The notes under the pieces are model-generated. The model was given only the letters and a program-made list of their open reading frames with translations. It was not told where the DNA came from and ran no database searches. Of a stretch of DNA of 40,515 nucleotides, positions 14,574 to 32,853 are shown piece by piece; the first letter of the stretch is position 1; the number at the start of each line of letters is the position of its first letter. Origin of the DNA: Planctomycetaceae bacterium (lineage in GTDB: Bacteria > Planctomycetota > Planctomycetia > Planctomycetales > Planctomycetaceae); NCBI GenBank assembly GCA_014762625.1, contig JABURQ010000134.1, positions 1 through 40,515 of the forward strand, written 5' to 3'. The translations under genes were made by a program, and so were the position numbers.

Positions 14574-14649
14574 AATGACGTTCGCATGATTTCATCATTA
14601 CTAAATCGAGACTTTCTTCCCAATACAATCCCTTTACAGGAGACCGGTC

Positions 14650-16970: not shown

Positions 16971-17196
16971 CGAGCACGCGTCCGACTTCGGAGATCTTGC
17001 TCGTACCATACTTGTGCTCGAAATGAGTGTTTAAAGAATGGTTGCTCGTGTCAATCGTTGACCGCAGCTCGTCGTGCCTTCCCAATTTCTGGTCTTGGAC
17101 GCTGCTTCGGCTTCCTGTGCCGTCCGTGCATCCATGTACGTGGTGACAGGGTCTGATTTCTATTCGCTTAAGTAGTTGAAACATAGGGTTCTGACG

Positions 17197-18705
17197 ATGA
17201 AAGCTCGTATTTCGCAATTGCCTCTCAAATGGATTTGGACGACGACCGTCATCGTGACAATCGGCGTCCTGGTACTCACTGTGAATCGCTGGTTGCCGGT
17301 CACTCAAGCCTGGGTGAACCAGACAATCAGTACATTCCGTGGGGGAGGCACCTCACATGGCGAGGGAGACTCTCACAGCGAAGAGGATCCGCACGCAGGG
17401 CATGATCACGGTTCGCACCCCGGACATGACGAAGCCACATCACTGGAACTCTCTGCTCAGGCGCTTCGCAATGTGGGACTCGGTCCCGAACAAATTCAAC
17501 CAGTGAAATTGGAGACGTACAGGAAGTCGATCACTGTTCCTGCTGTGATTGTAGAACAGCCAGGTCGAACGCGGATCCAGGTGGCGACTCCGATGACGGG
17601 CGTGATTACCAAAGTTCATGCTCTGGAAGGTGAAGCAATTAAGCCCGGAACATTGCTGTTTCAGATTCGCCTGACACACGAAGACCTGGTGCAATCTCAG
17701 ACAGAGTTCCTGAAGACACTAGGAGAACTGGATGTCGAAGAACGAGAGATCAAGCGGCTCGCCGCTGTGACCAATAGTGGTGCGGTCGCTGGAAAGGTTC
17801 TGCTGGATCGACAGTACGCCAAAGACAAACTTTCGGCACTGTTAAGTGCTCAGCGCGAAGCCCTCAAGCTCCACGGGCTTTCTGAAGAACAGGTCAATCA
17901 GATTGCCAAACAACGACGTTTGTTAAGGGAACTGCAGGTTTTTGCTCCATCATTCGACGGGAGTGATGATGTTGAGTTGAAGATTACAAGAAATGAGGTG
18001 CAGCCCGTCTCACTGTTCCAGGAGGAGCAATCCCAGGATTCCTCTGAAGATGGGCACTTCGGACCGCTGATTCTACAGGATCTTGATGTCCACAAAGGCC
18101 AATCAGTCACCTCTGGCGAGACGCTGTGTGTCTTAGTGCACTATGACGAACTCTTCATCGAGGGGCTTGCGTTCGAACAAGACATTGCCAGTTTGCGACA
18201 GACGTCGGATCAAAACTGGAAGGTCGATGCAATTTTCCAGCGACCAGGTTCAGAAACACAGCTCGTCCAAGGTTTGGAAATTGCCTATCTTTCCAATCAG
18301 GTCGATCCCGATTCACGAACACTACATTTCTATGTGCGGTTGCCGAATGAGGTCGCCAAGGACAACCGTGTCTCGGGGAATCGCTACCTCGAGTGGAAAT
18401 ACCTCCCTGGTCAACGCTTGCAATTGCGTGTTCCGATTGAGGAAATGTCAGAACAAATCGTCTTACCGGTCGATGCGGTTGCCCGGGAAGGTGCGGAATA
18501 TTTCATATTTCAACAGAACGGAGATCACTTTGACCGAGTTCCGGTTCATCTGACGTACCGAGACCAATATTCGGCGGTCATTGCCAACGATGGCTCAATC
18601 TTTCCAGGTGATGTCGTCGCCCGACGCGGTGCCCATCAACTTCAAATGGCTCTTAAGAACAAAGCAGGCGGCGGAGTCGATCCTCATGCCGGGCATAATC
18701 ACTAA
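17197..18705 (+). CDS. RND periplasmic adaptor 3 with His-rich ends, CusB-like
   Basis: This 502-residue adaptor is paired with pump 3. The frame is open to a TTG at 17176, but the ATG at 17197 with TAGGG upstream is the better start. A TM at about 15-37 is followed by the His-rich linker (HGEGDSHSEEDPHAGHDHG, about 51-69). Next come the lipoyl half-motif MTGVITKVHALEGEAIKPGT, a short helical hairpin with NSGAVAG, the second lipoyl half near LDVHKGQSVTSGE, beta-barrel and membrane-proximal domains, and a His-rich C-terminus (DPHAGHNH). An unusual insert after VFAPSF (about 250-290) splits the barrel-sandwich region. The His tails could load metal for the pump. It is co-directional with and 43 bases from the RND gene. 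Confidence 0.9.
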   Translation: MKARISQLPLKWIWTTTVIVTIGVLVLTVNRWLPVTQAWVNQTISTFRGGGTSHGEGDSHSEEDPHAGHDHGSHPGHDEATSLELSAQALRNVGLGPEQIQPVKLETYRKSITVPAVIVEQPGRTRIQVATPMTGVITKVHALEGEAIKPGTLLFQIRLTHEDLVQSQTEFLKTLGELDVEEREIKRLAAVTNSGAVAGKVLLDRQYAKDKLSALLSAQREALKLHGLSEEQVNQIAKQRRLLRELQVFAPSFDGSDDVELKITRNEVQPVSLFQEEQSQDSSEDGHFGPLILQDLDVHKGQSVTSGETLCVLVHYDELFIEGLAFEQDIASLRQTSDQNWKVDAIFQRPGSETQLVQGLEIAYLSNQVDPDSRTLHFYVRLPNEVAKDNRVSGNRYLEWKYLPGQRLQLRVPIEEMSEQIVLPVDAVAREGAEYFIFQQNGDHFDRVPVHLTYRDQYSAVIANDGSIFPGDVVARRGAHQLQMALKNKAGGGVDPHAGHNH

Positions 18706-18748
18706 TTCGCACCGGCAACGATCGTGCTGACATGAGGAGAGATGAAGA

Positions 18749-21700
18749 ATGTTAAATGCAATTATTCGATTCGCACTGCGGCAGCGGATGCTCGTCATCG
18801 CGGCGGCTCTATTCCTGGTTGGATACGGAACGTGGCAGGCGTTGCAGGCGCCGATTGATGTGTTCCCCAACTTGAACCGTCCCCGTGTGGTGGTGATGAC
18901 CGAAGTGCCGGGAATGGCACCGGAAGAAGTCGAAACGCTGGTGACATTTCCGCTGGAAACTGCACTGAATGGTGCCAACGGAGTGCAGGCTGTTCGCAGT
19001 TCGTCAGGTGTAGGCATTTCGGTAGTGTATGTCGAATTCGACTGGGGAACGGATATCTATAACGATCGCCAGATCGTCAACGAGCGCATCCAGCTCGTTC
19101 AAGAACGAATGCCCGAGGGCGTAAAACCGACGTTGGCTCCGATTTCGTCCATCATGGGACAGATTCTCATGTTGGGGATGTGGAGTGAAGATGAACAAAC
19201 TAATGCCCTGGAGATGCGCACGATCGCCGACTGGGTCGTTCGTCAACGGCTACTGACGATTCCTGGAGTTTCGCAGGTGTTTACGATGGGCGGAGGACGC
19301 AAACAGTTCCAGGTGCTTGTCGATCCAGATGCCATGCTGCGGTACGGAGTCGCGCTTCATGAAGTCAAGGACGCCGTTCAAAATAGTAACGAGAATGCGA
19401 CGGGGGGATACCTCGATGAACAAGGCCCGAATGAATTGCTGGTCCGTGCATTAGGGCGAGTTCAGTCGATTGAAGATCTACAAAAAGTCGTCGTGACGAT
19501 TCGCGACGGCAAGCCGATTGCCCTCGCACAGATCGCCCAAGTGATTGAAGGTCCGCAGGTCAAACGGGGGGATAGTTCAGCTTTTTTGCGTGTGGAAGAT
19601 GGAGAGTTTTCCGGCGGTCAGTCAGTCATTTTGACGATCAATAAGCAACCCAACGCTGATACGCGTGAAGTGACCGAAAGCGTGATGGCGGCCATTGAGG
19701 AACTCCGCCCTTCGTTGCCGGACGATCTTAGAATTCGTCAGTTCTATTCCCAAAAGTCGTTCATTGATCGGGCGATTGAGAATGTCATCGAAGCATTGCG
19801 CGATGGTGGCATCCTGGTCGTCATCATACTATTCCTGTTTCTGATGAACTTTCGCACGACGTTTATCACGCTGACGGCAATCCCCCTCTCTCTGGTCAGT
19901 ACCGCGATTGTTTTCCACTTCCTTGGACTCTCCATCAATACAATGACGCTGGGAGGCTTAGCAGTCGCCATCGGTGAGTTGGTCGACGATGCGATTGTGG
20001 ATGTGGAGAACATCTTCCGACGACTCAGAGAGAATCGAATTAAAGACAAGCCGCTGCACCCGCTACTGGTGGTCTTCCGAGCGAGCGTCGAAGTTCGCAA
20101 TTCGATTGTGTTCGGAACCATGATCGTGATTCTCGTTTTCGTTCCACTATTTGCTCTCTCAGGCATGGAAGGACGTCTCTTCACTCCGCTGGGGATCGCT
20201 TACATCGTCTCGATTCTCTCATCGCTCGTCGTCTCGCTGACTGTCACGCCAGTATTATCGTATTGGCTTCTGGGACATCAGAAGTCAACGGAAGAAGAGA
20301 AAGACGGCTTCTTTCTCAGAGGACTCAAGTGGGTCGGTGACAAGGTGATCCGCTTCAGTTTGCAATTCCCACGGTTGAATCTGACCGTCACGTTGACCGC
20401 TGTGGCATTGGCAGGACTGTTTGTGACCAACCTCGAAAAAGATTTCCTTCCGCCGTTTAACGAAGGCGTGATTCAGCTGAATGTTGTGCTGCCACCGGGC
20501 ACGTCGTTGGAAACCTCCAACGCAATCAATCGTCGGGTCGAACAGCGTCTGCTCGAAATCGAAGACATCGAACAGTTCGTTCGCCGGACAGGACGTGCGG
20601 AACTCGATGAGCATGCGGAGGGCGTCAACATGAGTGAATACATCATTGACCTCGATCCCGAAGCAGAACACTCACGAGAAGAACAACTTGAAGAAATTCG
20701 TGAAGCCATGGCTGATATCCCCGGCATCGTGACTGCCGTGGAACAGCCGATTGCCCACTTGATTTCTCATATGCTTTCGGGAGTGAAAGCTCAGATTGGT
20801 ATTAAGATTTACGGCGACGATCTCGATGTCCTCCGTCGCAAAGCCGACGAAATGAAAATGGCGATGCAATCGGTGCCAGGGGTGACGGACTTGCTCGTCG
20901 AACCGCAGGTCATCATCCCACAGATGCGTATCGAACTCGACCGCGACAAGTTGCTCCTTTACGGACTGACCCCGGTTGAAGTGAATGAATTTATCGAAAC
21001 CGCAATGAATGGGCAGGTCGTCTCGGAAGTGTTGATGGGACAACGCACCTTCGACCTGTTGATCCGATTGGACGAGAACTACCGCGAGAACTTGCACGAG
21101 TTGAAGCGGCTCACCATTGATCTTCAAGGTGGCGGAAAGGTTCCCCTTGAAGCCGTTGCCAATATCTACGAATCTGGCGGCCCCAACACCGTCAATCGAG
21201 AAAACGTTCGTCGTCGGATTATCTTGCAATGTAATGTTTCCGAGCGCGGTGTCGTCGATGTCGTGCAAGACATTCAACGTCAAGTGCGACCGGTCGTTGA
21301 AACCCTCCCGACTGGCTACTTCGTCGAATACAGCGGACAGTTCGAGTCACAACAATCGGCGTCACGCATTATTGGAGCATTGTTCGCAGTTTCGATGATC
21401 GGCGTCTTTATGGTGCTATTCACCATGTTCCGTTCGGTCAATCTCTCCTTGCAGGTGATGGCCGCATTGCCGATGGCGTTTATCGGATCTGTGGCAGCCC
21501 TCGTCATCACCGGACAAACGCTGACAGTCGCAGCCATGGTCGGATTTATCTCTCTGGCCGGAATTGCCTCCCGCAATGGCATTTTGTTGCTCAATCATTA
21601 TCTGCATCTGGTGAAGTACGAAGGTGAAGACTGGAGCAAGAAAATGATTGTTCGCGCCGGGCTGGAGAGACTCGCGCCGGTGTTGATGACCGCACTGACC

Positions 21701-21958
21701 TCGGGCATCGGACTCGTTCCACTAGTCCTCGCGTCTGGTGAGCCAGGAAAAGAAATCCTCTACCCAGTCGCCACAGTCATCCTGGGAGGCCTGATGAGTT
21801 CGACATTGCTGGACTTTTTTGTCCACCCGGCACTCTTTTGGCTCTTCGGACTGAAAGAGGCGCAGCGAGTCGTCAATGAATCTCAAACCGAAATCGCACT
21901 CACCGAAGAACACGACGAAACTCATGGTATCGAACAGCCCATCGCGATTGCGACTTAG
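18749..21958 (+). CDS. Heavy-metal RND efflux pump 3, CusA-like subgroup
   Basis: This 1069-residue HME-RND pump has the standard 12-TM layout. GAGGAGAG before the ATG supports the start. TM4 reads AVAIGELVDDAIVDVEN (about 405-420), lacking the DFG of pumps 1 and 2 and closer to the IG-VD-A-V-EN pattern of Cu/Ag pumps, with an extra acidic residue. In the porter domain EGVNMSEYIIDL keeps a Met where CusA has Met623, and ISHMLSGVK has a Met at or next to Met672; the Met573 equivalent (VIQLNVVLPP) is not Met. These are hand alignments from memory. A Cu/Ag-type substrate is therefore possible but the metal site is not canonical. The downstream genes at 22099 and 22875 are His-rich and probably belong to the same transcript. 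Confidence 0.93.
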   Translation: MLNAIIRFALRQRMLVIAAALFLVGYGTWQALQAPIDVFPNLNRPRVVVMTEVPGMAPEEVETLVTFPLETALNGANGVQAVRSSSGVGISVVYVEFDWGTDIYNDRQIVNERIQLVQERMPEGVKPTLAPISSIMGQILMLGMWSEDEQTNALEMRTIADWVVRQRLLTIPGVSQVFTMGGGRKQFQVLVDPDAMLRYGVALHEVKDAVQNSNENATGGYLDEQGPNELLVRALGRVQSIEDLQKVVVTIRDGKPIALAQIAQVIEGPQVKRGDSSAFLRVEDGEFSGGQSVILTINKQPNADTREVTESVMAAIEELRPSLPDDLRIRQFYSQKSFIDRAIENVIEALRDGGILVVIILFLFLMNFRTTFITLTAIPLSLVSTAIVFHFLGLSINTMTLGGLAVAIGELVDDAIVDVENIFRRLRENRIKDKPLHPLLVVFRASVEVRNSIVFGTMIVILVFVPLFALSGMEGRLFTPLGIAYIVSILSSLVVSLTVTPVLSYWLLGHQKSTEEEKDGFFLRGLKWVGDKVIRFSLQFPRLNLTVTLTAVALAGLFVTNLEKDFLPPFNEGVIQLNVVLPPGTSLETSNAINRRVEQRLLEIEDIEQFVRRTGRAELDEHAEGVNMSEYIIDLDPEAEHSREEQLEEIREAMADIPGIVTAVEQPIAHLISHMLSGVKAQIGIKIYGDDLDVLRRKADEMKMAMQSVPGVTDLLVEPQVIIPQMRIELDRDKLLLYGLTPVEVNEFIETAMNGQVVSEVLMGQRTFDLLIRLDENYRENLHELKRLTIDLQGGGKVPLEAVANIYESGGPNTVNRENVRRRIILQCNVSERGVVDVVQDIQRQVRPVVETLPTGYFVEYSGQFESQQSASRIIGALFAVSMIGVFMVLFTMFRSVNLSLQVMAALPMAFIGSVAALVITGQTLTVAAMVGFISLAGIASRNGILLLNHYLHLVKYEGEDWSKKMIVRAGLERLAPVLMTALTSGIGLVPLVLASGEPGKEILYPVATVILGGLMSSTLLDFFVHPALFWLFGLKEAQRVVNESQTEIALTEEHDETHGIEQPIAIAT

Positions 21959-22098
21959 CAGCTGTCCGTTGCCGCTACAAAACAGTTCCGTAAATCATGT
22001 AACTCTTTCAACCGTATTACGACGGCGGTTCATCAAGATGCTTTGATCTCCACAGGACGTGCGATTCACAGCAAAGAAATGACTTAAGGAAACGAACG

Positions 22099-22785
22099 AT
22101 GAAAACTTTCCAAACAACACTTCTCGCATCCACTGTGATGCTCGTCATGAGCATGGCTTCATCTGCGATGGCCCAAAAGTCTTTTGTGATTGCCTATCGG
22201 CTGAGCGACTGGAAGACCATGGAATTTGACAACCCGACAAAGGCTCAACAGCATTTGCAAGCGGTCAAGGATCTCGGATGTGAAGCACGCACCGAAAATC
22301 ACGAAGGACATCTGGATGTGACCTATCGTCTTCCCGCGTGGAAGCCGCTGGAATTGGCAACCGACAAACTCGTACACCAATGGGAAGGGTGGTTGAAATC
22401 TTCGGGCTTTGAGACGATCCATGGCCATGGTAACGATCACGCTCAGGGACCTGCCGGACACAACCATGCCAATGATGATCACGCGGGGCACGAACATGGT
22501 CCCGAAGGAGAAGAGTCGATTGCCTATCGACTGCCCAACTGGAAAACACTCCATTTTAAAACCGCCGACGAACGGAAGCAACTGATTGCCATCGCACAGG
22601 GATTTGGATGTGAAGTGCGCCAGGAAACACACGACGGTCACGACGACGTCCTGATCCGATCACCACGCTGGATGCACGCTGAGTTCCCAACTCATGCCGC
22701 GGCAGCCAAATGGGAACAATGGTTGAAGCGGACAGGCTTCGAAACGCAACACGAACATGCTGGTGAGCACAAGCATGATCACTAA
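22099..22785 (+). CDS. Secreted His-rich protein built from four repeats
   Basis: This 228-residue protein is of no family I recognise. The signal peptide ends at SSAMA (cleavage about 25/26). The mature part has two units, 31-109 and 141-219, that align with no gap at an offset of 110 residues: IAYRL, GCE-R, H-GH-DV, W-E-x-W-L-K and GFET-H all coincide. Each unit also splits into two halves 43 residues apart (Y33/Y76, G60/G103, E62/E105), each starting Y-R-x3-W and ending LG-C/F-E. This implies two rounds of duplication of a 40-residue element. A His-rich linker (HGHGNDHAQGPAGHNHANDDHAGHEHG in two parts, 108-134) joins the units and the tail is HEHAGEHKHDH. It follows pump 3 by 140 bases. 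Periplasmic metal storage or buffering is inference. Confidence 0.82.
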   Translation: MKTFQTTLLASTVMLVMSMASSAMAQKSFVIAYRLSDWKTMEFDNPTKAQQHLQAVKDLGCEARTENHEGHLDVTYRLPAWKPLELATDKLVHQWEGWLKSSGFETIHGHGNDHAQGPAGHNHANDDHAGHEHGPEGEESIAYRLPNWKTLHFKTADERKQLIAIAQGFGCEVRQETHDGHDDVLIRSPRWMHAEFPTHAAAAKWEQWLKRTGFETQHEHAGEHKHDH

Positions 22786-22795
22786 TTTTACGGTA

Positions 22796-22834
22796 GCACA
22801 TCGACGTTATTCACTGCGAGTGGTGTCGATGTGC
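22796..22834 (+). terminator. Hairpin GCACATCGAC/GTCGATGTGC between two His-rich protein genes
   Basis: A perfect 10-base inverted repeat with a 19-base loop that itself contains CACT/AGTG lies between the stop at 22785 and the ATG at 22875. No T-run follows directly, so it may be an attenuator or an mRNA-stabilising hairpin rather than a full terminator. Confidence 0.45.
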
Positions 22835-22874
22835 GTCACTTTAAACTTTCTCTACTCAACTCAAGGATTGCAAA

Positions 22875-23426
22875 ATGAAACGTTTCCCTCATCTCACAAC
22901 GGCATTAGTCGCTTCCCTGTCCATTGCAATGGTCGGGTGCGCGGATAACGAACCTTCCTCTGATGGTCCAGTCTCTACCGGACCGCCAGCAACGGTCGAC
23001 GATCATGAAGGACATGATCATGGTCCCGGTGGACACGATCACCCGACAGAAGGTCCCCATCATGGCTCGCTGATCGAACTCGGTGCCGAAGAGTATCACG
23101 CAGAAATGGTTCACGCTGAAGAGTCAGGTTCTGTCACTATTTATATTCTTGACAGTGCCGCCAAGACTGCGGTCCCGATTGAAGCATCTGAAATCACGAT
23201 CAATCTCAAACATGATGGCAAAGGCGAACAGTTCAAACTCGCCGCCAAACCGGACAGCGGTGACGCAGAAGGAAAGTCGTCGCGGTTTGTTTCCTCAGAT
23301 AAGGAACTCGGAGAAGACCTGCATAGCGAGGACGCTGAGGCAACTCTTGTCCTGTCCATCAACGGAAAATCCTATCGTGGCAAAATCGCTCACGATCACG
23401 ACCATGCGCATGATCATGCGCACTAA
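22875..23426 (+). CDS. His-rich lipoprotein with PHHGSLIELGAEEYHAE motif
   Basis: This 183-residue predicted lipoprotein has a basic start (MKR), the hydrophobic segment LTTALVASLSIAMVGC and lipid Cys22 (Met at -3 is a little unusual). A His-rich segment follows (DDHEGHDHGPGGHDH, about 42-56). Then comes a conserved-looking GPHHGSLIELGAEEYHAEMVH (in parts, about 60-80), and a beta-rich domain with YILDSAAKTAVPIEA and LSINGKSYRGKIAHDHDH. The last residues are DHAHDHAH. I know similar sequences as uncharacterised proteins next to metal efflux genes; no reaction is known to me. The C-terminal domain resembles a small immunoglobulin-like fold by pattern only. Metal binding at both His ends is inference. 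Confidence 0.75.
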   Translation: MKRFPHLTTALVASLSIAMVGCADNEPSSDGPVSTGPPATVDDHEGHDHGPGGHDHPTEGPHHGSLIELGAEEYHAEMVHAEESGSVTIYILDSAAKTAVPIEASEITINLKHDGKGEQFKLAAKPDSGDAEGKSSRFVSSDKELGEDLHSEDAEATLVLSINGKSYRGKIAHDHDHAHDHAH

Positions 23427-23500
23427 TGCGTCAGGCTGAGACTGGACGCTCTCCACAATATGGACGTTCAAGTCGGTTCAAACTCTAGCCCCCCAACAGA

Positions 23501-24511
23501 ATGTCATCCCCATCCGCAACGACTAAGAACGAAGAATCGCCATCGAACGACCATGACCACTCGGGGCATACCCATGGGATGACCCGCAGTGGCGAGGTGG
23601 TGGACGTTAGCGATTCGCGCCTGTTGTGGTCAGTGGTTCTCAACCAGATTTTGACATTGGGACAGGTGATTGCCGGAATCATGTCCGGGAGCGTCGCTTT
23701 GCTCTCGGACGCAGCTCACAATTTCAATGATGCCAATGCCCTGTTGATTGCGTGGATCGCTCGGCGCATTTCTCGAAAGGAATCAAACGAACGTTACACG
23801 TTTGGATATCGGCGAGCCGAACTCATCGGGGCAACGATCAATCTGACGCTTTTGGCAGTCATCGGGTTGTACCTGGTCTACGAAGGAATCAATCGCATTT
23901 TCTATCCGCAGGAGATTATCGGCTGGTTAATGGCCGCGGCGGCGATCTTGGCCCTCGTCGTTGATGTGGGCACAGCCTTGCTGCTGTGGGCAATGAGTCG
24001 CGGATCGCTGAACGTGAGAGCGGCTTTCATTCACAACATTGTCGATGCTCTGGGATCGTTGGGAGTTTTGCTTGGAGCAGGAGCGATCATCTGGCTGAAG
24101 TGGAATTGGGTTGATCCAGCATTGACGTTATTGATTTCCGGCTACGTGCTATATCAAGTGGTCGTGATGCTGCCGCAAGCAACACGTGTGTTAATGGAGG
24201 GCACACCGACCGATTTTGACCTCGATCATCTCGTCAAGGATGTCACCGCCATCGATCAAGTCATCGACCTGCATCATCTGCATGTCTGGCAACTCGACGA
24301 ACAACACATTGCCTTGGAAGCTCATATCGTCATCAAACGCCAGAACGCTGGCGACTTGGAGACCATCAAGAAGTCGGTCAAAAATCTTTTGAAGGACGAA
24401 TTCGACATCACTCATTCAACTCTCGAATTTGAGTTTAATGATGAGCGAACACAGCAGGACCACACCTGTCAGCTTGATGCGGGCGCATCAGGTCTGTCCC
24501 CTGGAGATTAA
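23501..24511 (+). CDS. Cation diffusion facilitator, CzcD/ZitB type
   Basis: This 336-residue inner-membrane exporter would move Zn, Cd or Co ions out of the cytoplasm against protons. The N-terminus has a His cluster ([12 protein letters not shown], 16-27). Six TM segments follow. The transport site residues are visible as H73-x3-D77 in TM2 ([11 protein letters not shown]) and H178-x3-D182 in TM5 (FIHNIVD), the His/Asp pattern of zinc-type CDF proteins. The cytoplasmic C-terminal domain shows [22 protein letters not shown] and ends with Cys and Asp. It begins 74 bases after the His-rich lipoprotein gene. Together with the RND pumps it gives a two-step route: cytoplasm to periplasm by CDF, periplasm to outside by RND. 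The division of labour is established for such systems but inferred here. Confidence 0.93.
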
Positions 24512-24746
24512 GTCATTTAGCCAGAACACTTTGGAATGATGATATTATAAATTGAGTTCGTGTTCAGAATGAGCGATATCAGTACGATTTTCGCTGACGT
24601 AGTTTCGCCCAAAGTCGAGACCCATTGAGGAGGCATCTCACCCTGAGTTTTTCCTCTAGACTCACTGCTCCATGTCCGATAAATAGAGATAACCGTTGTT
24701 TCCGTCCTTCACACTCTCATTCCAGCAATTGGACTCCTCGGATTTC

Positions 24747-25208
24747 ATGTTTCGCAACTTCCTCATTCTCTGGACCGTGTCGGCAGCCATTTTTCATGTG
24801 CTGTTGGGATGCTGTTCACCGTATGTGGGTTGTTGTGCCTATGCCTGCACAATGTGCGTCGATTCTTCTTCGTCTGAGTGCAAAGGTGACTGCTCCGCCT
24901 CTGATTGCGATGAAGCGGAGAATCACGAATCAGAACAGAGAAGCAATCTTTCATCGTCCCCATGTGGGAACAGTCATCCGAGCCCACCAAAGCCATGCGA
25001 TGACGTTGACTGCCAGTTTGTGTTTGCACCTCGGACCGATGACACCTTAGACACACTTTCAAGCGACTTGCTGGCAACAGTTCAAAACGTCTACCCGGCT
25101 TCGTTTGTGCTTGACGTGTTGCCTCGCCTCACTCGGCTTGAGCGACCGGATCAATTCTTGACAACTTCTGAACCGCTATACGCTATCAAGCAGGTTTGGT
25201 TGGTCTAA
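24747..25208 (+). CDS. Small secreted Cys-rich leader protein 3 (LLGCC/CDExDC family)
   Basis: This 153-residue protein is the third member of the family at 6508-6957 and 16512-16970. The frame is open from 24696, but the ATG at 24747 gives MFRNFLILW, matching the MFR start of member 2 and placing H17, G21, C22 and C23 at identical positions (FHVLLGCC). In place of the His cluster it has a Cys cluster: GCCAYACTMC (28-37), CKGDCSASDC (45-54) and C73. The signature CDDVDCQF (84-91), then TDD (97-99), and the end KQVWLV are kept. I count 12 Cys but only 3 His. It precedes the double thioredoxin-fold protein and the ABC exporter rather than an RND pump. A different metal or a thiol-based ligand set is suggested, as inference. 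Confidence 0.8.
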   Translation: MFRNFLILWTVSAAIFHVLLGCCSPYVGCCAYACTMCVDSSSSECKGDCSASDCDEAENHESEQRSNLSSSPCGNSHPSPPKPCDDVDCQFVFAPRTDDTLDTLSSDLLATVQNVYPASFVLDVLPRLTRLERPDQFLTTSEPLYAIKQVWLV

Positions 25209-25473
25209 CGCTCTTATAGACCACTATTCTTTCCTTTGTTTGGACTGGAGTGCGCTCAGTTGAGCGACCTTTCCATCCGCCCCTCGTAATACTCGGCGGC
25301 TGTCGAATTGCTTCCAGCTGCCGCAGTCGCTGTTCTCATACTTAAATACGACGTTCATGGGGATCTCGTTCTCAACGTCCCCATTGAGCGATAGTAATCG
25401 AATGCAGAATCCGATCCGTCGAGTCGGTTGTTGCAGTCTCAATTCACATTCGGCATAGAAAAGGATTTCAATC

Positions 25474-26256
25474 ATGACTAGAAATACGCAAGCACTCACA
25501 GTCGCGTTCATGCTGATTGCAGGAGCGCTTCCCTTGAGCCATCAAGCAACCGCTGCTGAATTCAGCGCGGGGCAACAAGCAGTTGAATCGAATGCCCAGA
25601 ATGGGAAGTTCAGTTTTGTCCTGTTTTATCGCAGTAATGACTCAGCGACTCAGTCGATGCAGCAAGTCCTTCAATCGACACTTGCGAATCGACAGGACTC
25701 AGTGATCGTACCCATTCAAATTAACGATAACCGCGAACAAGCGTTAATCAGTAAGTTTGATGCGACTCGGATACCGATGCCTGCCGTGGCTGTGCTTGCT
25801 CCGAACGGGGCGATCGCGAGTGTGTTTCCTCAGCGAGTCACTCCTCAGCATCTCACTGCTGCAATTGTTTCTCCCGCGCAGGCGAACTGCCTGAAAGCAC
25901 TTCAGGAGCAAAAAATCGTTCTGCTGTGTGCTCATCCGGAAGGCCAAAAAATCGTTCCAGCCGGTGTGACTCAGTTCCAGAACGACGCTCTGTTCAAGAA
26001 ACGAACCGAAGTCGTCACTGTCAATGCAAACGATCCGGCGGAAGCGCGCTTCCTGCAGCAGCTTCGCATCCGTACCGATCAGCCAAGTTCGGTTGTGGCG
26101 TTCATGGCCCCTCCGGGAGTGATGCTCGGTCTCTATAACGAAAATGTGACTCACAATATTCTGGCTCAAAAACTGGCTGCCGCCGGTAAGTGCTGCGACG
26201 ATGCGAATTGCAAGCACATTAAGGCTGCTGGTGGAACACAAGCACCACGCCGCTAA
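25474..26256 (+). CDS. Secreted double thioredoxin-fold protein with C-terminal Cys/His site
   Basis: This 260-residue protein is exported by a signal peptide (cleavage near ATAAE, about 28). Two thioredoxin-like units follow. The first (about 30-133) has [17 protein letters not shown] where an active site would be, so the CxxC is missing, and IPMPAVAVL as a cis-Pro-like loop. The second (about 135-236) shows [12 protein letters not shown] and [13 protein letters not shown]. The C-terminus [14 protein letters not shown] has C240, C241, C246 and H248, a likely metal-binding tail. The protein is thus probably not a redox enzyme. It lies between leader protein 3 and the ABC permease, with a hairpin just after it. 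The family is known to me only as hypothetical. Its role as a substrate-binding partner of the ABC exporter is inference. Confidence 0.72.
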
Positions 26257-26268
26257 TTCTATTTCTTC

Positions 26269-26313
26269 AAGCACGGGAATCGCTTCATTGCAGACAACGT
26301 GATTCCCGTGCTT
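26269..26313 (+). terminator. Strong 13-base hairpin before the ABC permease gene
   Basis: AAGCACGGGAATC and GATTCCCGTGCTT pair perfectly around a 19-base loop, followed by TCCTTAA. It sits between the stop at 26256 and the ATG at 26346, so it may cut down read-through into the ABC genes. The T-tract is weak, so partial termination or mRNA processing is as likely as full termination. Confidence 0.6.
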
Positions 26314-26345
26314 TCCTTAATACTCAACACTTAGGGGTGGATTCC

Positions 26346-27578
26346 ATGAAACTTCGTACACTCATCTGGAAAGAACTCTGGCAACGTCCGACGACAATGC
26401 TAACGAGTCTATTAACGGTGACGCTCGGCGTCGCGGCGCTCGTCGCAATTCAAAATATTACAGTCTCTTCAGAACGGAAAATTGCCGGTGACATGGAGTC
26501 GCTGGGAGCGAACGTCCTTGTCTTACCCGACAATGTCTCGTTGCAGGATTATTATTCTGCCGACATGCACGGTCAGACTATGCCCGAAGAGTATGTCACC
26601 AGATTGGCACTGGCTCGGATGCCGGGAGTGGAAAACCTTGCTCCGAAACTTTGCGTCGCGGCAACGGTGGACTCGATCCCCGTCACCCTCACTGGGATTC
26701 TTCCGCGTTCGGAGTTTCAGGCGAAATCGGCGTGGCAGGGCCTGAACCTCATCGCAAATCCAGTCGGTTCTGATCGAGGATGCTGCCCCACTGCGACTTC
26801 TGTCGGAGATGGCGATAGCGAAAGCCCAGCAGATCTCGCGACCACACGATCCATTCAAACACTTGGAAAGCGAGAAGTGATCCTAGGGGCTGACATTGCC
26901 ACGCAACTCGGGACGGAGGTTGGAGACGAACTCAATCTGATGGGAGAAGATTTCGAGGTCCTAACTGTTCTTCCTGAAACAGGAACGGTCGATGACAGTC
27001 GCCTGTTCGCTCATTTGCATTCCGTTCAGGATCTCTCCGGTTCAGGACCAGTCATCAACGTAATCGAGATTATGGCGTGCTGTGAGGACGCTGCCGGCGA
27101 TCTCATCGGCAATCTCTCGGCGGAACTCCCTGAGACCCGTATCGTGACCATTGCACAAGTCGTGGAGACACAAGTCGCCGTCAACGGATTGATGTCGAGT
27201 CTCTCCTGGGTCTTCTTCTCGATCCTGCTACTTGTTGGTGGAGCGAGTATCGCCAGTGTTATGTTCGCAAATGTCACCGAACGACGCAAAGAAATTGGCA
27301 CACTCATGGCATTGGGTGCGGGGCGTCGGTTTGTGACGCAACTGTTTCTCGGTAAGGCCACCCTCCTCGGCGTCTCGGGCGGGTTGATCGGATTTCTGAT
27401 CGGGACAGTTGTTGCAGTCGTCCTTGGACCGCAACTTCTCGGGATTGCTGTCCGCCCGATGCCACAACTGCTCGTCATCGGCATGATCACAGCGACGGTC
27501 GTCTCGTTACTTGCCAGCTACTTTCCCGCTCGGAAAGCAGCGGGACTCGATCCCTGCCTCGTGTTCAACGACGCGTAA
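26346..27578 (+). CDS. ABC transporter permease, MacB/FtsX type, with two Cys-Cys pairs
   Basis: This 410-residue permease has one N-terminal TM (about 18-36), a MacB-type periplasmic domain (about 38-280) and three C-terminal TM segments of the FtsX domain (about 285-405), with the [14 protein letters not shown] coupling motif at about 314. The ATG at 26346 with AGGGGTGG upstream is preferred over a GTG three codons earlier. The periplasmic domain carries Cys-Cys at 146-147 (RGCCP) and 245-246 (MACCED), not part of typical MacB proteins as I know them. Such pairs could bind a soft metal or form vicinal disulfides. It pairs with the ATPase gene 36 bases downstream. MacB-type systems act mechanically on periplasmic substrates; a metal-related substrate is inference from the neighbours. 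Confidence 0.88.
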
Positions 27579-27613
27579 TTCTCAAACTGGTCACTGGACC
27601 AAGGAGCTTTTTC

Positions 27614-28297
27614 ATGTATCAACTTAAAGAGGTCACGAAGACCTACACGCGTCGCGGTGAGACCGTGACAGCTCTCGATCATTCGAACCTGGCGATTGCC
27701 GACAACGACTTCGTTGCGATTGTCGGTCCCAGTGGCAGCGGAAAGACAACGATGCTCTCCGTCCTCGGCGGCATGATGGCCCCGACCTCGGGACAAGTCA
27801 TCCTCGATGGACAATCCGTGTATGATCTCTCCATCGAAGAACGAACAGCCGTTCGGGGAGAAAAGATCGGATTCGTGTTTCAAACCTTCAACTTAATTCC
27901 GTATCTCTCCGCTTGCGAGAATGTGCAGGTGCCGTTGTTGCTGTCAGGCAAGACTCCCGATGAACAACGAAAACGTGCACTGGAAATGCTCGACCGTGTC
28001 GGATTGTCTGACCGGGTCGATCACAAGCCCAATGAACTCAGCCAGGGACAGCAGCAGCGTGTGGCGATGGCCCGCACTTTGGCGAATGATCCGCAAATCA
28101 TCCTGGCTGATGAGCCGACCGGGAATCTCGACTCTGAAACCCGTCAACAGGTGATGGAATACCTAACCGAGTTTCATCAGGACGGTCGTACCATTGTCAT
28201 GGTGACCCACGACAGTGACTCCGCTGCCTACGCGAAAAGAACAATCCGCCTCGTCGATGGTGTTGCCTTGGATGTGAAGGATGCAAGAGCTGCCTAA
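27614..28297 (+). CDS. ABC transporter ATPase, LolD/MacB type
   Basis: This 227-residue cytoplasmic ATPase drives the permease encoded just upstream. All ABC motifs are present: Walker A GPSGSGKT (38-45), Q-loop [12 protein letters not shown], signature [13 protein letters not shown], Walker [13 protein letters not shown] and switch His in MVTHD. AAGGAGC in the 5' region and the ATG at 27614 give a normal start. It is the last gene before the strong terminator at 28326, so the block from the CDF gene or leader protein 3 to here is likely one unit or two. Confidence 0.95.
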
Positions 28298-28325
28298 TCA
28301 AACCTGTCGGTTCACAATTGCGATT

Positions 28326-28382
28326 CCGTGTTGCAAGTTCTGACGCGTTTCTTCCGACGCAAGGAACTTGTACACGGTTTTT
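28326..28382 (+). terminator. Strong intrinsic terminator after the ABC genes
   Basis: CCGTGT-TG-CAAGTTC pairs with GAACTTG-TA-CACGG with one small bulge, an inner GCGT/ACGC stem extends the hairpin, and TTTTT follows. It begins 29 bases after the ATPase stop and marks the end of the plus-strand metal block. Confidence 0.8.
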
Positions 28383-28492
28383 CAAAAGTTATCGACCACG
28401 CTCTGTTAACAAGATGCTTGGAAGTGTTTTCACACCCAACTATCAAAGAACATGTCATCAATTCGTCCAAAGAAGTGATTGTGGAACCATAA

Positions 28493-29980
28493 ATGTTGAA
28501 GATTCGACAACCGGATTCATCACTAAACGGCTCACGATCGATACGAACTCAGCTGTTATGGTCAGTCAACCTGACGTTGGGAATTGCCATACTTTGTCTA
28601 CTCTCTTTTCATTATCAAAAAGAGATGAGCGGCGAGTCACGCAAAAAATTCGAAAATCTCCGCGACGAAGCGATTGCAATCCACACAGCAGTCAATCATC
28701 TTGCTCTCAATCACGACTCCGGCGAAATACAACGCTACATCGATGGGGTTTGTAACCGTATTTGTTCAGGCAATCCCTCTGGACATCGGATCACTGTTAA
28801 AGTGGACGGGAAAGTGTTGCATTCCCACAAACATGCCGAAGACGCCCCGAACATTCTTGAGGTCATTAGTGAAGCGGCAGTTGCACCTGATCATCAAGCA
28901 GTGATCCATGATCGTGCTATTGTTGTAGGCAGCCATATTGAAAATGGGATCAGTGTATTCGTCTCTGAAGATTTGGCAGATGCTCGCAGGGCGATTCGCA
29001 CGCATCTCCTGACACAACTAGGAATATTAGCAATACTCGGAATCGGCGCTGCAGTCATCGTGAATATCGTCCTGCTTCGTATCGTCGATCGTCCATTGAA
29101 GCGTCTTGTACAACGGGTCGAACAGATCGCGGTGGGGGAGTACGGGCTCACGACAAAACCGTTCGGTTGTCGTGAGCTTCAAAATCTTTTTTGGGCGATC
29201 AATTCAATGAGCGAACGACTTCAGTTCAATGAAAGAGAAAGACATCAACAGTTGGAGAAAGCGCAGAGAATCCAACAGCACTTGCTGCCCGATGCAGTGG
29301 CAGTCCCAGGAATCCGCATCGCACACTCGTTCAAACCGGCAGATGTTGTGGCGGGGGATTACTACGATTATCTCCCGCTGTCCGATGGGTCATGGCTGAT
29401 TTGTCTGGCCGATGTGACGGGACACGGAATCCCGGCAGCAATGGGAGCAGCGATGTTGAAATCCATCCTTCTGGGCGTAACAGAAGAAGAACCTTTCGAG
29501 TTGATTTCAATCGTTCAGAAAGTCAACCGACGATTTGCAGCGACTGTACTTCCCGGAAACTTTGCATCAATGTTTCTCGCTCAGTGGACACCTGCTAAGC
29601 AGGAATTCTCATGGGTCAGCGCGGGTCATGAAACTGGAATTCTGCTCACCGATCGAAGCACAGTACAAGAACTTTCCAGTACCGGGTTGCTACTGGGCAT
29701 CGATGAGAAAGCGAATTACAAGCAGCAAACAATCACGCTCGCGCCCAACCAAAGAATTCTCTTGTTCAGTGATGGAGCTACTGAAACACTCAGTCTTTCA
29801 GGTGAACTCTTTGGACGTGAACGACTACTTGAATGCTTTCGTCGCCATCGAGAAGCACGAATTGAATTTGCTCTTGCCAAAATTGAAGAGCAACTGGATT
29901 CCCACCGAGGGACCGCGAACTTGTCGGACGACTTGACACTGATTGCCATGGAATTCGCGGAGATGAACGACAGCGAATAA
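28493..29980 (+). CDS. Membrane-bound PP2C/RsbU-type serine phosphatase with HAMP domain
   Basis: This 495-residue protein has TM1 at about 20-39, a periplasmic sensor domain (40-172), TM2 at about 173-197, a HAMP linker (about 198-250), a coiled stretch (NERERHQQLEKAQRIQQHLLP) and a SpoIIE/RsbU phosphatase domain (about 285-490). The catalytic motifs are visible: VVAGDYYDY, LADVTGHGIPAAM, LLFSDGATE and LSDDLTLIAMEF. Enzymes of this class dephosphorylate anti-anti-sigma proteins and so switch sigma factor use. The sensor domain has C87-x3-C91 (GVCNRICSG), H98 and HSHKHAED (110-117), a plausible metal site. It lies right after the metal block but behind a terminator, so it is its own unit. No partner anti-sigma gene is in the window. 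Confidence 0.88.
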   Translation: MLKIRQPDSSLNGSRSIRTQLLWSVNLTLGIAILCLLSFHYQKEMSGESRKKFENLRDEAIAIHTAVNHLALNHDSGEIQRYIDGVCNRICSGNPSGHRITVKVDGKVLHSHKHAEDAPNILEVISEAAVAPDHQAVIHDRAIVVGSHIENGISVFVSEDLADARRAIRTHLLTQLGILAILGIGAAVIVNIVLLRIVDRPLKRLVQRVEQIAVGEYGLTTKPFGCRELQNLFWAINSMSERLQFNERERHQQLEKAQRIQQHLLPDAVAVPGIRIAHSFKPADVVAGDYYDYLPLSDGSWLICLADVTGHGIPAAMGAAMLKSILLGVTEEEPFELISIVQKVNRRFAATVLPGNFASMFLAQWTPAKQEFSWVSAGHETGILLTDRSTVQELSSTGLLLGIDEKANYKQQTITLAPNQRILLFSDGATETLSLSGELFGRERLLECFRRHREARIEFALAKIEEQLDSHRGTANLSDDLTLIAMEFAEMNDSE

Positions 29981-30017
29981 AAAACTGCCTGACAACTCTT
30001 GGTGAATTGCAGGCAGT
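29979..30017 (-). terminator. Intrinsic terminator, minus strand, also between convergent genes
   Basis: On the minus strand ACTGCCTG pairs with CAGGCAGT across an 18-base loop and runs into TTTTTT. It follows the stop of the His-rich secreted protein at 30045 and overlaps the stop region of the phosphatase gene. For the plus strand the hairpin has no T-run. Confidence 0.7.
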
Positions 30018-30044
30018 GGATTGTCTCAGTCTATTGTTTTGAGA

Positions 30045-30947
30045 TCATGGAACGGTTGGAGGTGGGGGGGAACCAATCGCGTTTGGATTTTGATTGGTTG
30101 GAACCGCTTGTCGAAAGGTCGGACTATTCGATGGTGCTGATTGCTGGAATCCCGAACCGGCGGGCGGTGGTGCTTGTCCGTTTGCAGGACCTCCCGGTGG
30201 AAGTGCTTGACCATTGCCAGCGTTGACGCCTGACTGCCTGACTCCAACATCATTCATGAGATGATGCAGTGTTGATTCGATGTAATCCATTTTCGTCAAG
30301 ATTCCGAGACTTCCAACCTGTCGATGATGGTGACGGCTCCAGCCGCGCACATCGTCTTGAATATGATGGAACAGCTCATCAAGACCACCAAGTTTTGAGG
30401 CGATGGCGTCGCGATCACGCTGATGTTCAGCGGCGTGGATATATTTGGCAACATCAAGGATCTGGTAAGCTTCTGCGTACGTTTCCCGGAATCCATGATT
30501 GTGCGAGTAATTGAAATGCAGGTCCAAACAAAGCTCGTTCGTGAGGGTTTCCAGTCGTGAGGCCAGATCATCAACTTGAGAGAACCCTCCGAACTGCATC
30601 TGCACTGGCTTTGCAGCAGTATGGACTTGCTGCCCATGCGGATCTGCTGAGGCAGTGCGTTGGGGGTAATAATAAGAACGACCGCCGTGCGAATAATAAC
30701 TCCCTGCATGCGCAGTGTTGAAGTGTGGCACGACATGTGTTGAGTTGGGGTGAATTACATCATGATGATGACGTTGCACGACATGCCCGTGGCTATCCCG
30801 CACAACATGATCGTGATGATCGATGTGCGCTCCTCCCGAGTAGCGTGGTTGATAGCGACGATGAACATGCTGAGCTTCGACAGTACTGGCTGTCCAAGCC
30901 AATGCCAGCCCGGCAATCGTTAGAAATGTTGCGGCGTTCGTTTTCAC
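30045..30947 (-). CDS. Secreted His-rich protein with helical core and Pro/Gln-rich tail
   Basis: This is a 300-residue protein. The frame is open 13 codons upstream, but the GTG at 30947 with GAGGAGAG gives a clean signal peptide (VKTNAATFLTIAGLALAW, cleavage after VEA). The mature N-terminus is rich in His/Tyr (HIDHHDHVV, VQRHHHDVIH). A helical domain (about 120-230) follows, with LCLDLHFNYSHNHGFRETYAEAY and two more His clusters (LDELFHHIQDD, SRHHHRQ). The C-terminal 70 residues are Pro, Gln, Asn and Gly with a repeated NGQAxPP element. I know related sequences only as uncharacterised planctomycete-type secreted proteins. It may bind metal or coat the cell surface; neither is shown. A minus-strand terminator follows directly. 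Confidence 0.72.
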   Translation of the reverse strand: MKTNAATFLTIAGLALAWTASTVEAQHVHRRYQPRYSGGAHIDHHDHVVRDSHGHVVQRHHHDVIHPNSTHVVPHFNTAHAGSYYSHGGRSYYYPQRTASADPHGQQVHTAAKPVQMQFGGFSQVDDLASRLETLTNELCLDLHFNYSHNHGFRETYAEAYQILDVAKYIHAAEHQRDRDAIASKLGGLDELFHHIQDDVRGWSRHHHRQVGSLGILTKMDYIESTLHHLMNDVGVRQSGVNAGNGQALPPGGPANGQAPPPAGSGFQQSAPSNSPTFRQAVPTNQNPNAIGSPPPPTVP

Positions 30948-31101
30948 AGGACTCTCCTCTGTTGAAATTGCGAGACATCCTGTCATCGATTTGGCCCGCT
31001 GCTCCGCAACAGGTGTTCACTGTAGAATTTGATTATGTCCTTCTCATCACCATTTTTTCAATGTAGCAGCCAATAATCAGAGGTGGACATTGGGAGAATC
31101 G

Positions 31102-31131
31102 CGGGATCAATTTCCGAAAAACTTGATCCCG
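31102..31131. repeat. Hairpin CGGGATCAA/TTGATCCCG after the Gly/Tyr-rich protein gene
   Basis: A perfect 9-base inverted repeat with a 12-base loop lies 20 bases beyond the stop at 31151 of the minus-strand gene. No T-run follows on that strand, so it may be a weak terminator or a processing site. Confidence 0.5.
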
Positions 31132-31150
31132 TGATCCGACAATAGGTCAT

Positions 31151-31504
31151 TTAATGACCGTGTCCAGTGCGATGAGAATCATAGTGTCCGGGCGTGTAGT
31201 CGAGATGTCCTCGATGCCGCTGGACTGTCGGCGGCTGATAGTCGTAATGGCTCGTGTTGTGGTAGGAACGACCATATCCGAAAGAAGGATTAGAGCCATA
31301 GTTTGACCGATAGCCGTTGTTAAACCTGGATCCGTAGTTGCCGTGATTTCGTGAGTAAGAGCGACCGTACCCCCCGTGAGAATAGGCACCGCCATAGTTG
31401 TTGTAACCGTTTCCCCAACTGACTCCGAATCCGGAAGCCTGAGCTGATGATCCCATCAGTATTGTGGCAGTCAGGACAGCACTCAATGTAAGTAAACGTT
31501 TCAT
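31151..31504 (-). CDS. Small secreted Gly/Tyr/His-rich protein
   Basis: This 117-residue protein has a signal peptide (MKRLLTLSAVLTATILMGSS, cleavage near AQA). The mature part is almost all Gly, Tyr, Asn, Ser, Arg and His, with repeated GYGRSY and SRNHGNYGSR-type elements, and a His-rich end (YTPGHYDSHRTGHGH). GAGGAGATAG before the ATG gives strong support for translation. The composition suggests an unfolded surface or matrix protein; its His-rich tail could bind metal. It runs in the same direction as the protein at 30045-30947, with about 200 bases between them. Confidence 0.65.
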   Translation of the reverse strand: MKRLLTLSAVLTATILMGSSAQASGFGVSWGNGYNNYGGAYSHGGYGRSYSRNHGNYGSRFNNGYRSNYGSNPSFGYGRSYHNTSHYDYQPPTVQRHRGHLDYTPGHYDSHRTGHGH

Positions 31505-31849
31505 CGTTCTATCTCCTCGTTAAGACTTCGATTTCAAGTGAATCACAATTTCGCGATGTACCAATGGATTGCACAAGCGATGCCAAACCGGCAAATATTG
31601 CCGAGCCCGCTTTTTCGTAGCAAAAACCCAACAGAAACTGTCAGTTCGAGGCAATCACAGTATTGGCGTCAGTAAACGCGGTGTCGCGTTCATGAGCTTG
31701 GTGTCATCAAGGTGATACCAGAAAAGCAATGTTAGTTCCGGTTTGATTGAGCATCAGCTTTGAACGAGGACAAAACTCGCCTTGAGTTGCCTCCATCAAG
31801 CAGATACTGACGCCCGGTTCCCCAAAAGAGGCAGACGAGAGCTAGGCAA
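31505..31849. other. Intergenic region between the ArsR gene and the Gly/Tyr-rich protein gene
   Basis: These 345 bases hold no credible gene. The part near 31505-31600 should carry the promoter of the secreted protein. No hairpin with a T-run is obvious after the ArsR stop at 31850. Confidence 0.4.
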
Positions 31850-32155
31850 TTACCCGAATCGACCTTCGATGCAGCGGATGATCTCAGCGAGATGTGGTTC
31901 AGTCACCTTGTAATAGACGCGGCGACCTTGGCGTTCGGTCTCGAGTAGTCCAGCTCGCTGCATCAGCCGCAGATGTTCTGATGCCATATGAGGGGCGATT
32001 TCACATGCTTCAGCCAATTCACTGACCATATGCCGATCATTGAGGAGCATTTGGATCATTCGTAGACGCCACGGGTGAGCAATCACTTTGAGGCACTCAG
32101 CAGCCTCTTTCAAATCCTCAGGACTCGTGAGGGATGTTTTCTTCGGTTTCTCCAT
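31850..32155 (-). CDS. ArsR-family transcriptional repressor
   Basis: This 101-residue winged-helix regulator starts at the ATG 32155, with GGAGAAGCA upstream, five codons inside the open frame. The HTH region reads MVSELAEACEIAPHMASEHLRLMQRAGLL (two parts, about 43-71), followed by the wing RQGRRVYYKV. Cys residues are C21, C51 (in the helix before the recognition helix) and C95 (in the last helix). Two distant Cys able to form a di- or polysulfide link are the sensing device in SqrR/BigR-type ArsR proteins; whether C51 and C95 serve this here is inference. The gene is divergent from the DUF442/persulfide dioxygenase pair, which it likely represses. A metal-sensing role cannot be excluded, but the classic CVC motif is absent. 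Confidence 0.88.
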   Translation of the reverse strand: MEKPKKTSLTSPEDLKEAAECLKVIAHPWRLRMIQMLLNDRHMVSELAEACEIAPHMASEHLRLMQRAGLLETERQGRRVYYKVTEPHLAEIIRCIEGRFG

Positions 32156-32315
32156 TGCTTCTCCACACAATCATTGCTCGCCGCACCAGTTTGGCACAAC
32201 GTCGAATTCGCAGCTACTTCGATGGATGTGATTTTCGGCTTTGCTCGTTCAGCGATTGTATAGTTCGTTCGACAATCTTGTCTTTAAGGGAGCGAAATGT
32301 TGAAAACGCTGCAAG

Positions 32316-32329
32316 CAATCGTACAATCG
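32316..32329. promoter_or_regulatory. Repeat CAATCG-TA-CAATCG, candidate ArsR operator
   Basis: Two direct CAATCG copies stand 2 bases apart in the divergent region, and an inverted CGATTGTA lies 60 bases away at 32253-32260. These are the only repeated words I see between the regulator and its target genes. Confidence 0.3.
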
Positions 32330-32403
32330 TGACAGTACGACCCTTTTGGGTTGGTCAGTCCCGAGTTGTGATTTATTTCTCCCACCTGAGATGGAGCCTC
32401 AAG

Positions 32404-32853
32404 ATGCAGAACACCATGAAAATCAATGATCAAATAAGCGTCGGTCCTCAGCCGAGCGAAAGCGATCTTCAACAACTCAGCCAGCAGGGATTTAAAACTG
32501 TTGTAAACTTTCGTACTGAGGGCGAGGAGGATCAGCCGCTCTCGCCCGCAACTGAGGGAGACAAGGTGCAGGCTATCGGCATGGAGTACCTCAGCATTCC
32601 CGTGTCGATGAAGTCGATGGGGGCGGAACTGGTCGATCAGTTTCGAGACCAGTACCCGGAACTTCCCAAGCCCGTCTTCGCCCATTGCAAGAGTGGAAAG
32701 CGGGCGGGTGCAATGGTGATGATGCACGTCGCGGTTGAACAGGGGATGAGTGGTGAGGAGACGCTTCAAAAAGCTGAAGAGATGGGTTTTGAGTGTGAAC
32801 AGGAAGAATTACGAAAGTTTGTGAAGCATTACGTAGATAACCACTCCAAGTAA
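32404..32853 (+). CDS. DUF442-type phosphatase-like protein (beta-lactamase hydrolase-like)
   Basis: This is a 149-residue protein. The ATG at 32404 is taken because the sequence from there (MQNTMKINDQISVGPQPSESDLQ, in parts) begins the DUF442 fold; the upstream open frame is not protein-like. The active-site loop HCKSGKRAG (94-102) has C95-x4-R100, the form common in this family. Related domains are found beside or fused to persulfide dioxygenases and sulfide:quinone oxidoreductases in sulfide-responsive operons. The reaction is not settled; a phosphatase or sulfurtransferase-type Cys chemistry is possible. It lies 37 bases upstream of the dioxygenase gene in one transcript. Confidence 0.85.
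   Translation: MQNTMKINDQISVGPQPSESDLQQLSQQGFKTVVNFRTEGEEDQPLSPATEGDKVQAIGMEYLSIPVSMKSMGAELVDQFRDQYPELPKPVFAHCKSGKRAGAMVMMHVAVEQGMSGEETLQKAEEMGFECEQEELRKFVKHYVDNHSK

Follow-up and report, generated by a model that had tools for sequence, protein, structure and literature searches.

Known relatives of the system described here include the FetMP-FetABCDEF or Fls iron system of Campylobacter and uropathogenic E. coli, which likewise joins one or more ATP-binding cassette (ABC) permeases, an ATPase and thioredoxin (Trx)-fold proteins to metal transport; for FetBCD and FetEF, which supply two permeases, an ATPase and thioredoxins, a redox-power relay for iron uptake is proposed by the authors (PMC10783030). 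The selenocysteine-assisted organometallic (SAO) ABC system carries selenocysteine (Sec) in a Trx-like protein and in an ABC permease, with Sec as a possible metal ligand, and a 2026 review of prokaryotic selenoproteins names its ABC components, the term 'MacB' being absent from the main text of the review (PMC13188914). On the Pelobacter propionicus plasmid pPRO1, a run of DUF2318, FtsX permease and ATPase genes provides a single permease and ATPase near a heavy-metal P-type ATPase. MacAB-TolC and LolCDE have the permease fold and helix pattern in common with the locus studied here, which lies in a 40,515-nucleotide stretch of Planctomycetaceae bacterium DNA (assembly GCA_014762625.1, contig JABURQ010000134.1; hereafter the window). 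This locus contains three consecutive genes, encoding a double-Trx protein (Trx2), a permease and an ATPase, which form a real conserved module; no description of it turned up in the literature and family libraries searched. With a rough probability of 0.6, we read it as a type VII (MacB/LolCDE/FtsEX) ABC module that handles soft metal(loid)s through thiolates and, rarely, selenolates. Its features in the window are:

25474..26256, forward strand: Trx2, a secreted-type double-thioredoxin-fold protein without CXXC and with the Cys tail CCDDANCKH (open reading frame (ORF), predicted structure, Foldseek)
26191..26196, forward strand: codons of Cys240-Cys241 in the Trx2 tail (C241 in 114 of 116 and C240 in 71 of 116 Trx proteins)
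26209..26211, forward strand: codon of Cys246 in the Trx2 tail (kept in 116 of 116)
26346..27578, forward strand: MacB/LolC-type permease (Pfam MacB_PCD and FtsX, AlphaFold 2 (AF2), Foldseek)
26781..26783, forward strand: codon of permease Cys146 (117 of 117)
27078..27083, forward strand: codons of permease Cys245-Cys246 (117 of 117; Cys245 is TGA in locus L253)
27614..28297, forward strand: LolD/MacB-type ATPase (Pfam ABC_tran)

As described (PMC10783030), the Fet system has two permeases that are thought to be heterodimeric, the DUF2318 protein FetA and an iron permease, whereas the cassette has one permease; in place of the single-domain CXXC thioredoxins FetE and FetF (motifs CPSC and CGVC), the cassette encodes a double Trx protein with a Cys tail and no CXXC. 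Its context is that of heavy-metal or ars genes. The pPRO1 permease is 26.6% identical to the window permease over 86%; by reading, its motif CSGC occupies the stretch that corresponds to CC in the cassette permeases, no equivalent of Cys146 is seen, and its gene run has a DUF2318 protein where the cassette has Trx. Compared with SAO, the cassette ATPase reaches 141 on the SaoA model, whose cut-off is 360, and no SaoP or SaoT match is obtained in NCBIfam. Unlike the solved MacB chains (654-671 aa), in which the ATPase is fused, the cassette encodes its ATPase in a separate gene; it reaches 57.7 bits on the MacB equivalog (cut-off 966) and 45.8 bits on that of LolCE (cut-off 362), and it differs from both MacAB-TolC and LolCDE in its invariant Cys and in the absence of a fixed MacA. 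The Trx and permease forms tested pass no NCBIfam model (June 2026), and the ATPase falls under the cut-off of every one of the best 25 of 210 NCBIfam models matched. PADLOC assigns a single weak match to Trx2 and matches the permease by FtsX-type (LolE_TM) models only. A search of open-licence PubMed Central papers, judged by title and the start of the abstract, returned nothing on a Trx-permease-ATPase module.

The linkage of the three genes is computed from 117 distinct loci, obtained after removal of identical permeases and comprising 64 from a protein search (the window included) and 53 from a scan of named genomes. Trx is present in 116 of them and the ATPase in 115, and each missing gene falls at a contig end. 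When 170 genomes of the window's order were searched, permease matches were found in 73, three of these having only weak, partial ones; the 80 loci retrieved from the order comprise 77 cassettes, in which Trx precedes and the ATPase follows the permease on the same strand (one is cut before the ATPase), and three outgroup permeases without Trx. In the best 80 of 265 named relatives, one lacks Trx and two lack the ATPase, all at contig ends; these relatives include Planctomycetota together with records labelled Deltaproteobacteria, Riflebacteria, Krumholzibacteriia, Hydrogenedentes and others, and the closest named permease homologues are labelled Planctomycetaceae and other Planctomycetota. 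Cultured planctomycetes with the cassette include Rhodopirellula solitaria CA85, Thalassoglobus neptunius KOR42 and Stieleria tagensis. Profiles of Trx and permease run on the same 392 genomes, with results compared by eye, gave both proteins in 36 genomes, the permease only in one, Trx only in two and neither in 353; wherever both occur (36/36, permease at least 388 bits), the genes are adjacent. The two Trx-only matches (E 3e-14 and 8e-14) have alignments that stop short of the tail, and in the permease-only genome, G428, a divergent Trx-like ORF missed by the profile lies beside the permease. Since permease scores drop from 388 bits directly to 138, the family is discrete. No Trx match (E 1e-3) was obtained among 72,556 plasmids, where all permease matches are below 60% identity. 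Apparent Trx-permease fusions of 679-702 aa were rejected upon finding a stop codon between the two genes. A second permease ORF nearby was recorded for L224 only in the neighbour table, where a few rows lack the permease because the ORF caller missed it.

These counts bear on a first-pass annotation of the window, which had proposed a unit of four genes opening with a Cys-rich leader. All four ORFs are indeed present in sequence, as supported by ORF calls and Pfam, and the 12 Cys of the leader were counted; co-occurrence across genomes extends to Trx, permease and ATPase, and a four-gene unit was rejected, as a leader ORF of the same family lies within 6.5 kb of the cassette in 6 of 117 loci.

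The permease, numbered over 410 aa from the ATG at 26346 (an alternative GTG start is listed at 26337), belongs to the type VII (MacB/LolC/FtsX) class: MacB_PCD and FtsX exceed the Pfam cut-off, and AF2 and Foldseek agree, with LolE and MacB as best structural matches and the heme exporter HrtB lower in the ranking. The ATPase is likewise of the expected kind, being identified as ABC_tran by Pfam and nearest to LolD/MacB types. In the AF2 model (predicted local distance difference test (pLDDT) 81, predicted template modelling score 0.61), four long helices are seen with a domain between the first and the second; the helices would be transmembrane and the domain, spanning about 55-268, periplasmic. 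Cys-Cys pairs occupy 146-147 and 245-246. The latter pair directly precedes a helix at 247-260 of the predicted periplasmic domain, and C146 sits in a low-confidence loop with pLDDT below 50 on either side. Among the 117 distinct permeases, Cys146, Cys245 and Cys246 are invariant; the other Cys vary, with Cys147 in 29, Cys103 in 72 and Cys404 in 109. The expectation that both pairs are conserved thus stands for 245-246, and 146-147 reduces to one invariant Cys. Because the CC motif was one of two patterns used in the named-genome scan, the 53 loci from that source are biased for CC. Loci found without this pattern nevertheless have C245 in 81/81 rows and C146 and C246 in 78/81, the remaining three being the outgroup permeases. 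A later set of 21 loci contains six that repeat permeases of the 117 and 15 that are new, and the triad is present in 14 of the 15; the last, L253, has C146 and a TGA-Cys sequence at 245-246. The Cys pairs also exceed chance, as CC occurs anywhere in the sequence in 117/117 cassette permeases but in 1/40 ORFs of other MacB-type permeases encoded in genomes of the window's family. Four sister permeases (L077, L078, L118 and L316) carry DCLC or CSGC in the stretch that corresponds to CC; a search of their surroundings gave no Trx partner, and the L316 permease adjoins a DUF2318 gene.

The double thioredoxin fold assigned to Trx2 from its sequence is borne out by structure prediction: the AlphaFold model shows two thioredoxin folds and a loose tail (pLDDT 90), and the beta-alpha-beta-alpha-beta-beta-alpha order appears twice in the predicted secondary structure. 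Thioredoxin_6 is its sole Pfam match, with a score under the cut-off. The N-terminus is signal-like by reading. As Cys139, 152, 240, 241 and 246 are its only Cys, Trx2 has no CXXC active site. The motif CCDDANCKH is found in the tail, although it does not strictly end the protein as had been stated, since 12 more residues follow to the C-terminus. Foldseek retrieves tandem Trx domains of the QSOX, PDI and ERp44 type, catalytic ones included; whole-chain template modelling scores against these tandems reach just 0.24-0.35, and the domain arrangement of Trx2 is therefore unlike theirs. At least three Cys are present in the tail of every Trx protein (116/116).

Association with metal genes is enriched as well. 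Core metal genes, defined as those for a resistance-nodulation-division (RND) heavy-metal pump, P1B-ATPase, cation diffusion facilitator (CDF), ACR3, ArsC or ArsM, lie within 6.5 kb of 65/117 cassettes against 1/40 other MacB_PCD permease windows (Fisher p 2.9e-10), in agreement with the metal role first suspected; the 40 control windows derive from 15 of 21 genomes searched, all from the window's family. In the protein-search loci alone, the count is 31/64. Membrane fusion protein (MFP) genes are near just 29/117 cassettes, so a MacA-type partner is not a fixed part.

In a permease tree, two clades are separated with 99% Shimodaira-Hasegawa-like support, and genomic context changes twice among 75 labelled rows; cluster names of neighbours rest on one representative each, and ArsR/SmtB is not arsenic-specific. 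The ars clade comprises 23 rows, 20 with ars-type neighbours (ArsR/SmtB, ACR3, ArsC or ArsM clusters) and three without. The metal clade comprises 92 rows, mostly planctomycete records (L166 and L173 carry other labels): 52 have RND, MFP, outer membrane efflux protein, P1B or His-rich neighbours, 39 have none, and a single row, the window, has both kinds. Rows L048 and L225 fall outside both clades. The tails differ accordingly between the two subtypes. Those of the ars clade, taken together with L048 and L225, have at least three Cys in 24/24 with a mean of 0.08 His and are often Gly-rich (e.g., CGPGGCGP), those of the metal clade have at least three Cys in 92/92 with a mean of 1.38 His, and a C-x3-5-C-[KRQ][HYF] tail is present in 82/92 of the latter versus 0/24 of the former. 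In coordination chemistry, As(III) is well matched by all-thiol sites and Cu, Zn or Cd by Cys/His sites.

In-frame TGA codons within these Cys motifs occur in two genomes and probably reflect Cys-to-Sec exchange. In L253 (genome G428), the permease has an in-frame TGA exactly at Cys245, and the adjacent Trx-like lipoprotein ends in SCGSG, TGA, K and a stop codon. L144 (genome G432) encodes two Trx proteins in tandem, each with TGA inside the tail Cys motif. A change in genetic code was rejected as an alternative, because TGA also terminates genes in both loci, namely Trx2 and permease in L144 and the ATPase in L253. SelB exceeds its cut-off in G428 and G432 and not in the window's genome, G427 and G278, which have Cys cassettes; these five genomes were tested. 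A tRNA-Sec(tca) was found in G432. RF01852 was rejected as a Sec marker on its own, since in G278 and G428 the genes that exceed its cut-off are tRNA-Ser according to ARAGORN. Among 23 genomes of the class of G428, the permease is absent from all but G428 itself, and Trx is absent from all but G432 among 29 genomes of its class. The permease is found in 3/345 genomes in the phylum of G535 and in 2/80 in that of G538, with no TGA inside the permeases; L193 and L205 are the cassettes of G535 and G538 themselves.

The preferred reading, of a metal(loid)-handling module, would work as follows. A soft metal(loid) that reaches the periplasm through ACR3, P1B or RND pumps or by leakage would be captured there by the tail of the secreted, non-catalytic double-Trx protein with its three or more Cys. 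Trx2 would then pass it to a putative thiolate site formed by Cys146, Cys245 and Cys246 in the periplasmic domain of the permease, which is presumably a homodimer. ATPase-driven shape changes (mechanotransmission) could release the metal(loid) or move it outward or to a partner, possibly an outer-membrane channel or a neighbouring RND pump. The all-thiol tail of the ars-operon subtype would be suited to As(III) or Sb(III), and the Cys and His tail of the subtype in Cus/Czc and P1B islands, to which the window belongs, to Cu, Ag, Zn, Cd or Hg. A more specific version, put forward tentatively and at somewhat less than even odds, is that of an undescribed ATP-driven periplasmic thiolate/selenolate relay leading from the non-catalytic double-Trx tail to a MacB-type permease homodimer with a Cys3 (or Sec-Cys2) site; its arsenic subtype would be spread across several phyla and its Cu/Zn/Cd-type subtype found mainly among planctomycetes. 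It would include a MacB/FtsX-class transporter predicted to use selenocysteine, and we know of no earlier one.

Several observations weigh against this interpretation. To our knowledge, known type VII ABC systems act on proteins, lipids, heme or drugs and not on free ions. No core metal gene lies within 6.5 kb in 52/117 loci, including 16/20 rows of the Gimesia-containing clade, and the permease tree was computed with FastTree, which gave long-branch warnings. The Sec cases come from two metagenome-type draft genomes; in one of these, G428 (77% complete), the sole RF01852 match over the cut-off is a tRNA-Ser according to ARAGORN. SelB exceeds its cut-off and Cys is nonetheless kept in 8/12 genomes behind other named cassettes, so the presence of Sec machinery does not force the use of Sec. 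Hairpins resembling Sec insertion sequences after the four TGAs are only moderately better than those elsewhere, as 11/128, 2/84, 6/80 and 3/86 control codons of the same genes score equally well. A further in-frame TGA (L253:319) falls in the Gly-rich linker after the lipobox of the G428 Trx, where no Cys aligns.

The strongest competing explanation is a thiol-redox relay in the periplasm like the one proposed for FetABCDEF, in which thiols would be reduced or oxidised, so that efflux proteins are kept active or the oxidation state of the metal is changed, with no metal moved. Both vicinal Cys pairs and the exchange of Cys for Sec are characteristic of redox sites, and the related CSGC permease of the Pelobacter plasmid, flanked by genes for DUF2318 and an ATPase and not far from a heavy-metal P-type ATPase, also speaks for such a role. 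FetBCD and FetEF are the same kinds of parts, with a redox relay proposed by the authors, yet FetE and FetF have the CXXC that is missing from the Trx domains of the window (PMC10783030). Moreover, tails vary by context as metal ligands would, and the ars-clade tails, with at least three spaced Cys, resemble a thiolate cluster rather than a single redox pair. This explanation is unlikely, at about one chance in four.

Less probable still is an envelope-repair function, in which a machine of the LolCDE/MacB kind would extract or fold proteins or lipoproteins damaged by metal and Trx2, induced with the metal genes, would act as a PDI-like chaperone. The structural matches to LolE and MacB and to tandem Trx domains of the QSOX and PDI type would fit, but a chaperone has no obvious need for an invariant Cys triad and at least three tail Cys, and Cys/Sec exchange points to the Cys themselves. 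That the permease is an ordinary MacB-type drug exporter found by chance in metal islands is very improbable: although Pfam gives generic families only, the Cys are invariant, any CC and a nearby metal gene are each found in one of 40 other MacB-type permeases, and the variable presence of MFP genes leaves a MacA-type partner unfixed.

In the window, the cassette is set within a metal-resistance island that encodes a CusA-type RND protein, two His-rich small proteins and a CDF protein. Features around the cassette are:

18749-21958: CusA-type RND ORF, its identity named via homologues
23501-24511: CDF cation efflux protein
24747..25208, forward strand: Cys-rich 153-aa ORF ('leader 3'), a neighbour outside the conserved module
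26269..26313, forward strand: strong hairpin with a T-rich 3' flank, in the gap between Trx2 and permease
28326..28377, forward strand: terminator-like hairpin, then TTTTTC

The leader has no Pfam match and is a paralogue of the ORF at 16512-16970 (31% identity, E 2e-23). The two agree at both termini, with MFR...FH-LLGCC N-terminally and DCQFV and KQVWL C-terminally, and differ in the middle, which is His-rich in one and Cys-rich in the other; their sequences suggest interchangeable leaders that bind metal in Cus-type operons. For the ORF at 14148-14573, kinship to this family is not clear (E 0.15). In 18/117 loci, mostly of the Gimesia-containing clade, a 130-aa Cys-rich protein without Pfam match (L170:4551-4943 and 17 similar) is encoded upstream of Trx, possibly as a stand-in for the leader.

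The group had been described as ending at a strong terminator, and a hairpin with a T-run does follow the ATPase (-37.4 kcal/mol, z -4.6 for the 111-nt stretch containing it); a second strong hairpin, however, lies inside the group, between Trx2 and permease (-27.1 kcal/mol, z -6.2 for 81 nt). Homologous Trx-permease gaps of 40-200 nt contain a run of at least 10 stacked pairs in 26/54 cases, a count given without a background rate. The internal hairpin is perhaps an attenuator or mRNA-processing site, and perhaps sets the Trx level above that of the permease. Terminators were no more frequent than expected in a simple consensus scan (7 found, 7.6 expected), and no Rfam family reaches its gathering score within 14000-32500. 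Beside the cassette, a HAMP and SpoIIE-type phosphatase gene (28493-29980) adjoins, as it also does in L040, L088 and L157 (4/117 loci), and is possibly regulatory.

If the metal(loid)-handling reading is true, ABC machines of type VII, whose known roles concern lipoproteins, drugs, heme and cell-wall signalling, would also handle toxic metal(loid)s via a dedicated thiol chaperone, and a missing part would be supplied for ars and Cus/Czc resistance loci of several phyla. The differences between arsenic and heavy-metal tails, together with the Cys-to-Sec cases, make metal selectivity directly testable.

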